Source: Sphingobacteriaceae bacterium (GTDB lineage Bacteria; Bacteroidota; Bacteroidia; Sphingobacteriales; Sphingobacteriaceae). Taken from it: a DNA stretch of 64,000 bases. The stretch is taken from contig CANGZD010000004.1 in the NCBI GenBank assembly GCA_947458875.1, positions 62,001-126,000 of the forward strand, in the 5' to 3' direction. Below are positions 16,452 through 29,446 of the stretch, in pieces. A program made the position numbers and the translations under genes. Below the pieces are notes generated by a model. The model was not told the DNA's origin. It ran no database searches and saw nothing but the letters and a program-made list of their open reading frames with translations. How positions within the stretch are numbered: the stretch's first letter is position 1; the number at the start of each line of letters is the position of its first letter.

Positions 16452-18314
16452 TTATTTACTCATGTGTACCATCAAAACCGAAATATCCGAGGGTGAAACC
16501 CCCGAAATCCTGGAAGCTTGTCCGAGTGTTCTTGGTTTGATTCGAATTAATTTTTCCCTTGCCTCTTTTGAAAGAGAACCCAGGGTTTGGTAGTCGAACT
16601 CCGGATTAATTTCCCGGTCTTCCATTTTTTTCATCTTCTCTACAATCTCCATTTCCTTCTCAAAGTAACTCTCGTATTTTATTTTAATCTCTGCTTGTTC
16701 TATTACCTCTGTTTCAAATCCACTCAACAGCTGATCGAATGAGCTGAGCACCTCCCTCAAATTCTTAATTTCCACTTGTGGTCTACTCAGCAATTGTACC
16801 AACTTCACCTTTTGGTTTACTGCAGATGATCCCACAGACTCGAGCATTTGATTTACCTCTTCTGGTTCTACCGATTGTTTCTTAATGTGCTGAACAATTT
16901 TTTCTGCATCCGCTATTTTTTGCTCCACCCTCTCCATACGTTCATCGCTTATCAAACCTAACTGATGTCCAATACTACTTAATCTAATGTCTGCATTATC
17001 CTGTCTAAGCAGTAAGCGGTGTTCGGCCCTTGAGGTAAACATTCGGTAAGGCTCTTCTGTCCCCTTGGTTACCAGGTCGTCAATTAGTACGCCTATGTAT
17101 GATTCAGAGCGTTTCATGATTAGCTCGTGCCGATCATTTATCTTCTGGTGCGCATTTATTCCTGCAATAAATCCTTGGCATGCTGCTTCCTCATAACCAG
17201 TGGTGCCGTTGATTTGACCTGCGAAAAACAGGTTTTTAATCAACTTGGTCTCCAGGGTTAAATCCAACTGAGTGGGTGGGAAATAATCGTACTCTATAGC
17301 ATAACCCGGTCTGAACATTTTTGCATTTTCAAAGCCGGGGATTTTGGTCAAAGCCTTGTACTGAACATCTTCGGGCAGGGAAGTAGAGAAGCCATTCACA
17401 TAAATTTCTACAGTATTCCAGCCTTCTGGTTCTACAAAGATCTGGTGTCGCTCCCTTTCTGCGAATCGGTTTATTTTATCTTCTATAGAAGGACAATATC
17501 TGGGACCCAGGCCCTTAATCCTACCCGTAAACATTGGCGATTTTTCAAATCCTTCTTTCAGTGTTTCGTGCACCGCTTCGTTGGTGTAGGTGATCCAGCA
17601 ACAACGCTGTTCTTCTACCAGCGGTACCTTAGTATAAGAAAACCGCCCCCTTTCCTCATCACCCCACTGCTCCTCCATTTTGGTGTAATCTAAACTTCTG
17701 CCGTCTATTCTTGGGGGTGTCCCTGTTTTCATTCTGCCTGCCTCAAAACCCAGCTCTACCAACTGTTCGGTGATACCCGTTGCTGCTTTTTCTGCAGTCC
17801 TACCACCACCAAATCTTTTCTCCCCTATATGAATCAAACCATTTAAAAAGGTGCCGTTGGTCAACACTACTGCGGCCGCTTCAATCTCCATGCCCAATGA
17901 GGTTTTTACCCCCAACACTTTATCTCCCTTCACTAATAAACCAGATACGGTATCTTGCCAAAAATCCACATTTGGTGTTTGTTCCAATTTCAATCTCCAC
18001 TCTTCCGCAAACCGCATTCTGTCTATTTGCGCTCTCGGACTCCACATCGCTGGCCCTTTTGATCGGTTCAGCATCCTGAATTGTAGTGTAGTTTGATCGC
18101 TAATGATACCAGAGTACCCGCCCATGGCATCAATCTCTCGAACAATTTGTCCTTTTGCTACACCACCCATGGCTGGATTACAGCTCATTTGCGCAATCGT
18201 ACCCATGTTCATGGTTACCAATAGCACCCTCGAACCTAAATTTGCCGCCGCCGCCGCCGCTTCACACCCTGCGTGGCCCGCACCCACTACTATGATATCA
18301 TATTTATTAAACAT
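16452..18314 (-). CDS. mnmG: tRNA uridine-5-carboxymethylaminomethyl(34) synthesis enzyme MnmG
   Basis: [92 protein letters not shown]. Confidence 0.98.
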
Positions 18315-18323
18315 ACAGCTCTA

Positions 18324-18339
18324 TGTTCCACGTGGAACC
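18324..18339. promoter_or_regulatory. parS-like centromere site 1 (TGTTCCACGTGGAACC)
   Basis: 15/16 match to TGTTNCACGTGNAACA; lies 10 nt upstream of the mnmG start codon. Confidence 0.8.
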
Positions 18340-18351
18340 ATACAAAATTAA

Positions 18352-18627
18352 CTAAATTTTATCGCCTACCTTTCCACATGTTTCACGTGGAACATGTTTA
18401 GCCAGGGCAAATAAAGCCACCATTGCCCAAACGCTTTCTAAAACCACAAATGGATAGAAAGCCACCATGTAGGCCGATATGCCACACAAAGCCGCACCAA
18501 ACAGGTTTAATATTGCATACAGCAGATGTTCGGTGTCGATCTTTTTTAAGAGATTGAGCAAATAAGCAATCAACAGCAAGGTCACACCAATGGTGGCTAA
18601 AAGGTCCGGCAGGCTAATTAGGGTCAT
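18352..18627 (-). CDS. Small CBU_0592-like multi-TM membrane protein
   Basis: 91 aa, hydrophobic, ATIGVTLLLIAYLLNLLKKI...LYAILNLFGAALCGISAYMVAFYPFVVLESVWAMVALFAL. Confidence 0.72.
   Translation of the reverse strand: MTLISLPDLLATIGVTLLLIAYLLNLLKKIDTEHLLYAILNLFGAALCGISAYMVAFYPFVVLESVWAMVALFALAKHVPRETCGKVGDKI
18379..18394. promoter_or_regulatory. parS-like centromere site 2 (TGTTTCACGTGGAACA)
   Basis: 16/16 match to TGTTNCACGTGNAACA; lies inside the 3' end of the 18352..18627 CDS. Confidence 0.88.
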
Positions 18628-27775: not shown

Positions 27776-29446
27776 ATGACCACGCAAACGATGGATCTTA
27801 CTAAACGAAACACGCCCACCGGAAATAAATTAAATTGTAAAGGCTGGGTGCAGGAAGCGGCACTTCGAATGTTGCTCAATAACCTGGATCCGGAGGTAGC
27901 CGAACGCCCCGAAGATCTCATCGTTTATGGCGGAAGGGGAAAGGCTGCTCGAAATGCGGAGTCGCTGGAACTGATCGTTAAGGCATTAAAAGATTTAGAA
28001 GAAGATGAAACCCTGTTGATCCAGTCGGGTAAACCCGTGGGTATTTTACCCACTCACAAAGATGCCCCAAGAGTATTGATCTCCAATTCACAATTGGTTC
28101 CCAAGTGGGCCACTCAACAGCATTTTGACGATTTAGAAGATAAGGGCCTCATGATGTATGGCCAAATGACAGCCGGCTCCTGGATCTATATTGGTTCACA
28201 AGGCATTGTGCAGGGTACCTTTGAAACCTTTGCCGAAGTAGCCCGCCAGCATTTTGGCGGCAGTCTGAAACACACCCTCTCGGTAACAGCCGGTTTGGGT
28301 GGTATGGGTGGAGCCCAGCCCCTGGCCATTACCATGAATGAGGGCGTTTGTCTGGCGGCCGAAGTGGAAGAGTGGCGTATTCGCAAAAGATTGGAAACTC
28401 GTTACATCGATGAAATATGTTTTGATATTGATGAAGCCATCGACCGGGCGCAGAAATACAAAGAAGAAGGAAAGGCACTTTCCATTGGAGTAGTAGCTAA
28501 TGCTGTTGAATTATTAAGTCGATTAATTGAACGTAATATCACGGTAGATGTATTGACCGATCAAACCTCTGCCCATGACCCCTTAATCGGTTATTTCCCG
28601 GAAGGATTATCTGTAGAAGCAGCAAGGGTATTACGGGAAGAAAACCCCGAAGAATACACCCGCAGATCCTACGCCACCATGGCCAAACACATTGAACTAA
28701 TGCTGGAAATGCAAAAAAGAGGTGCGATCACCTTCGATTATGGTAATAATTTAAGGGGAAGAGCTTTAGAAGCGGGGGTTACCCATGCTTTTGATTTCCC
28801 CGGTTTTGTACCCGCCTACATTCGTCCTTTGTTTTGCGAGGGGAAAGGTCCTTTCCGATGGGCAGCACTAAGTGGCGATCCGGAAGATATTGCGGTTACC
28901 GATCAACTGATTTTAGAATTGTTTCCTGAAAACGAGGGCTTGCGCCGGTGGATCACCATGGCAGAGGATCGCATCGCTTTCCAGGGATTACCAGCCCGAA
29001 TTTGTTGGTTGGGGCAGGGTGAACGTGAAAAAGCCGGATTAGCCTTTAATAAACTGGTGGCCGAAGGCAAGGTAAAAGCACCCATCGTCATCGGTCGCGA
29101 CCATTTGGATACCGGTTCAGTGGCTTCACCCAATCGAGAAACCGAAGCCATGAAAGACGGTTCTGATGCGGTGGCCGATTGGCCCATTCTCAACGCTCTC
29201 GTCAACACCGCCGGAGGTGCCAGCTGGGTTTCATTACATCATGGTGGTGGCGTGGGAATTGGTTATTCCATTCATGCAGGCATGGTGATCGTAGCCGATG
29301 GTACTGCTGACGCAGAAACTAGAATTAAACGGGTATTGCATAATGATCCGGCCATGGGGGTGATTAGACATATGGATGCGGGCTACGACATTGCACAGGA
29401 TACCGCCCGAAAGCACAAGTTGGACCTCAAAGAAAGACTTCGATGA
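27776..29446 (+). CDS. hutU: Urocanate hydratase
   Basis: [71 protein letters not shown]. Confidence 0.98.

Follow-up and report, generated by a model that had tools for sequence, protein, structure and literature searches.

The region analysed lies in a 64-kb stretch of DNA (the window) from a Sphingobacteriaceae draft genome, and it contains mnmG (gidA), a short ORF for a CBU_0592-family membrane protein, and two 16-bp parS-like palindromes (Table 1). Site 1, the mnmG-proximal palindrome, occupies the gap ahead of the mnmG ATG, its start lying 25 bp ahead of that codon (-25, in the mnmG direction), and site 2, at -80, falls within the 3' end of the CBU_0592-family ORF, giving a start-to-start distance of 55 bp. 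The CBU_0592-family neighbour is kept in many relatives; beyond it lie a pirin gene, ybeY, an anti-sigma-factor-like gene and then tRNA-Pro. An Rfam search of the window returned a single tRNA and nothing else. A tblastn search with the genome's own ParA and ParB gave no significant match in the window, and elsewhere in the draft genome rsmG is carried on contig C7, dnaA on C35 and parAB on C24. The absence of parA, parB and rsmG from the vicinity of the sites, already pointed out in the first-pass annotation, is the normal state in Sphingobacteriaceae relatives and no oddity.

Table 1. Features of the mnmG locus and the SMC gene; coordinates refer to the window unless a contig is named.
Feature	Coordinates	Strand	Sequence or family match
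mnmG (gidA)	16452-18314	-	TIGR00136, 835 bits, E 2.9e-251
Putative parS site 1, mnmG-proximal	18324-18339	.	TGTTCCACGTGGAACC, 15/16 to TGTTNCACGTGNAACA
91-codon ORF, CBU_0592-family membrane protein	18352-18627	-	NF047864, E 3.2e-12
Extended palindrome around site 2	18376-18397	.	ACATGTTTCACGTGGAACATGT, 20/22 positions symmetrical
Putative parS site 2, distal	18379-18394	.	TGTTTCACGTGGAACA, 16/16 to TGTTNCACGTGNAACA
Full-length SMC	this genome (G000), contig C17 25276-28788		

Site 1 retains the core GTTCCACGTGGAAC unbroken, its single mismatch being the outer, final base (C for A). Together, the two sites are the sole matches at ≤2 mismatches in the window, where 0.16 such matches are expected and two or more arose in 1 of 100 shuffles. 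Base composition predicts 0.0003 exact sites and 0.012 sites at ≤1 mismatch per 64 kb, with an expectation of about 1e-8 per window for an exact site accompanied by a ≤1-mismatch neighbour no more than 100 bp away. The whole genome was searched as a 1.74-Mb draft of 43 contigs, 88% complete, the missing part of which could hold further sites; sites 1 and 2 are its only matches at ≤1 mismatch, likewise its only matches with the core GTTNCACGTGNAAC, and a reversed-pattern control gave 0 matches. The draft genome thus holds few, clustered copies and none that are scattered, as is characteristic of a chromosomal parS. The first-pass annotation had described a closely spaced pair of parS-like sites with a near-perfect 22-bp palindrome around the second, had judged a chance pair very unlikely, and had proposed a genome-wide motif scan; both matches and the palindrome were recovered where it had placed them, the computed expectation agrees with its judgement, and the scan found no scattering, with both matches beside mnmG.

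Conservation was assessed in 80 relatives' loci (L060-L139) fetched by MnmG similarity, mostly from Sphingobacteriaceae and including Mucilaginibacter, Pedobacter, Hufsiella, Paradesertivirga and MAGs, the closest being Sphingobacteriaceae MAGs. In all 80, the 800 bp upstream of mnmG hold between one and five core sites, mostly two (179 in total), and no core site occurs in the remaining 537 kb of the same loci. The consensus of these sites is NGTTYCACGTGRAACA, its core bases being invariant in 80/80 relatives; the flanks and the spacing vary. Distances between sites range from 23 to 241 bp, with no helical phasing seen when it was looked for, and a flanking A at -1 and T at +16 are each present in approximately 70% of the relatives' sites. 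The outer base facing away from mnmG is relaxed (T in 65%) and the one facing mnmG nearly fixed (A in 91%), an asymmetry common to proximal and distal sites, for which a symmetric dimer site offers no reason. Site 2 is kept in the same-genus genomes G115 and G234. Across the order, the exact 16-mer is found in 212 of 301 genomes, and sites with ≤2 mismatches lie just upstream of mnmG in 18/18 Sphingobacteriaceae mnmG loci, 16 of which come from genomes without the exact site. Larger clusters were also observed, G264 having seven core sites in a 2.2-kb stretch (contig C1 4492846-4495037) and locus L029 five exact ones, and two genomes of genus g2, G039 and G063 (L304, L309), carry an extra site, CGTTGCACGTGAAACA, inside the mnmG coding sequence at +1066.

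At the level of the phylum, the exact site is present in 227 of 297 Bacteroidota genomes, with reversed-control matches almost nil. Loci fetched by the site contained mnmG in 23 of 30 cases, one further locus being cut off beside a ybeY-like ORF. A draw based on mnmG rather than on the site covered 31 genomes across the phylum and yielded 30 loci, of which 29 show mnmG flanked by a core site, either upstream, downstream or on both sides; the sole exception, G312, is without a core site at mnmG. Several families have their sites exclusively on the downstream side of mnmG, or else on each side of it. Conservation beside mnmG, the further check suggested earlier, therefore extends from the 80 relatives to these 29 loci, and a position conserved among relatives is again what characterizes a chromosomal parS. 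The parS cluster at mnmG is a near-fixed position across Bacteroidota, with dnaA, parAB and rsmG unlinked to it. The open literature searched contained no description of parS-mnmG linkage in Bacteroidota, the parS survey of Livny 2007 falling outside its scope. Exact sites away from mnmG were seen in families f5 (L146-L149) and f9 (L154-L155), near thrC-like and rlpA-like ORFs in the former and near recF-like and DUF721/DciA-like ORFs in the latter, these ORF names being tentative assignments by eye; the f9 neighbours would also suit an origin neighbourhood.

The position of the replication origin was estimated by a two-state GC skew fit on five single-contig Sphingobacteriaceae chromosomes, each represented by 20 samples of 20 kb. 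Sampling was coarse, with a spacing of 185-310 kb, and the fits were moderate (r 0.66-0.83); at this resolution, the fitted skew origin lay 111-237 kb from mnmG-parS in the five genomes, corresponding to 4-11% of the half-chromosome. Such proximity differs from uniform placement (Fisher p 0.002), a value drawn from five related genomes only. In the same five genomes, neither dnaA (545-1253 kb from the skew origin, p 0.34) nor parB (675-1354 kb, p 0.57) showed a link to it. The comparison of sites with GC skew and dnaA, suggested in the first-pass annotation, was thereby carried out on relatives, and its guess that the locus is origin-proximal gains support from them; for this exact genome, proximity is extrapolated from the relatives because its own assembly is fragmented. 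A same-genus contig of 348 kb (G115 C2) showed no clear skew switch at parS. Four single-contig genomes of genus g2 have dnaA at the contig start; in one of them mnmG-parS lies 16 kb from dnaA, and in the remaining three it is some 100 kb or less from the end of the contig, contig sizes being rounded. Across 69 loci, the interval between 3 kb upstream and 4.5 kb downstream of the mnmG start showed no enrichment of DnaA boxes (TTATCCACA or relaxed), and with no DnaA-box cluster within 3-4 kb of mnmG, oriC itself is therefore not there; the mnmG gap was accordingly dropped as a candidate for oriC. A Hi-C study covering 12 gut bacteria, two of them Bacteroidetes (PMC10197239), locates parS clusters at the origin and finds dnaA to be no systematic marker of it; the skew shift taken there as the origin was chosen by the parS cluster, with read coverage as support.

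The closeness of the proximal site to the mnmG start also admits a regulatory interpretation, in which ParB or another regulator recognizing a CACGTG-centred palindrome would control the mnmG promoter from an operator, the centromere-like appearance being incidental. A site only 25 bp ahead of the ATG is well placed for this, 11 of 81 loci have a Bacteroidota-type -7 element, TANNTTTG, just upstream of their proximal site (1.7% expected), and ParB at parS3 and parS4 of Pseudomonas aeruginosa has been reported to repress downstream genes (PMC7022226). Control of mnmG is nevertheless unlikely as a shared function, because elsewhere in the phylum several families have their sites downstream of the gene only or on both sides of it, and the exact sites of families f5 and f9 lie away from mnmG altogether. 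The exact match to the ParB target, the lack of further copies in the genome and the clustering near the skew origin likewise suit a centromere over an operator, which leaves the regulatory interpretation very improbable. A second role of the proximal site at the mnmG promoter, as a side effect of centromere function, is possible.

The draft genome gave one ParB-family match (TIGR00180, E 3.4e-52), encoded directly after ParA in a canonical parAB operon that is not on the mnmG contig; its reading frame occupies 1231-2127 of locus L003, on the minus strand. This ParB contains GERRFRA, the CTP-pocket motif of the ParB family. When it was aligned to ParB and Noc proteins of solved structure, the positions equivalent to Caulobacter R173 and G201 were occupied by Arg and Gly, the numbering being transferred from the aligned motifs. 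These two residues are reported to be absolutely conserved in ParB, with Gln and Arg in their place in Noc (PMC7383237). Both specificity residues were also found in 13 relatives where a simple ParB motif search gave a match; the same search gave no return in 11 other relatives, which bears neither way on the residues. A ParB with parS-specificity residues, adjoining ParA, is thus encoded here.

A Noc-like ParB paralogue acting in nucleoid occlusion could in principle bind the sites in place of the partition ParB, given that Noc is derived from ParB and targets a related palindrome (PMC7383237), so that the Noc-binding site (NBS) resembles the present sites in being a palindrome with a ParB-family binder (predicted here). 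Unlike NBS, however, the sites have parS bases and are clustered at one locus, and the genome's one ParB-family match has Arg and Gly where Noc has Gln and Arg; with neither NBS bases nor Q173/R201 equivalents found, this assignment is highly improbable. The possibility of a functionless chance or relic match, to which the absence of parAB from the window might lend some weight, is next to negligible in view of the 1e-8 expectation and the invariant core in the relatives, and the chance, scattered-motif and no-ParB readings were rejected since the sole sites in the genome are both at mnmG and a ParB is encoded.

Full-length SMC is encoded in this genome and in 11/11 other Sphingobacteriaceae tested. 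This is unlike Bacteroides caecimuris and Muribaculum intestinale, the two Bacteroidetes described in PMC10197239 as being without any known condensin. G328, of family f4, had no full-length SMC.

Site identity, uniqueness and conservation, the coding capacity for a parS-type ParB with ParA and SMC, and proximity to the skew origin in relatives were all computed directly. The two palindromes are very probably a chromosomal parS centromere, origin-proximal and served by a ParB encoded elsewhere. The centromere suggested by the first-pass annotation is therefore upheld on each point that it had named as able to overturn it, as the genome encodes a parS-type ParB and shows no scatter of the motif, and relatives keep the sites next to mnmG. 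By analogy with established ParABS knowledge, ParB binding, loading and segregation at the sites would proceed as follows: ParB produced from the separately located parAB operon would load on both sites as a clamp with CTP and spread into neighbouring DNA, ParA would move the ParB-bound DNA, and SMC would probably be recruited by ParB at parS, with separation of the sister origin regions as the expected outcome. Over the evolution of Bacteroidota, parS would have kept its place at mnmG, with dnaA, parAB and rsmG moving away.

The element itself is of a known, textbook kind. As in Bacillus subtilis Spo0J/parS and Caulobacter ParB/parS, it consists of the same 16-bp palindrome (TGTTTCACGTGAAACA) in more than one copy, with a parS-type ParB, ParA and SMC encoded in the genome and, judged by skew in relatives, an origin-proximal location. 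Unlike parS in those two organisms, the sites are unlinked to parAB, dnaA and rsmG, their outer base is relaxed on one side, and the cluster is tied to mnmG phylum-wide. In other bacteria, gidA (mnmG), rsmG, parA and parB form a cluster near oriC. The present locus resembles that arrangement in having mnmG and parS near the origin, and differs from it in that only mnmG and parS are still together, rsmG and parAB having left the locus. Bacteroides caecimuris and Muribaculum intestinale offer a closer parallel, having parS clusters at the origin with dnaA an unreliable marker, and the available text of that account of parS clusters makes no mention of mnmG/gidA (PMC10197239).

In Bacteroidota dnaA is often found elsewhere, which makes their replication origins hard to place; a parS cluster fixed at mnmG offers an easily recognized sequence marker of the origin region for draft genomes, and one that can be targeted in ParB ChIP or in tagging of the origin. 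It also raises the question of why mnmG, a tRNA-modification gene, stays with the centromere and the partition genes do not. A broader proposal, which we advance tentatively as plausible but somewhat short of probable, is that of a phylum-wide fixed centromere, in which parS would have been tied to mnmG since the Bacteroidota ancestor and would mark the origin region, while dnaA, parAB and rsmG could relocate freely; the proximal parS of Sphingobacteriaceae would also overlap the mnmG promoter and thereby couple ParB occupancy to mnmG expression.

Apart from the partition locus, the window contains a gene of histidine breakdown, encoding urocanase (27776-29446), the genome being only about 1.7 Mb in size.
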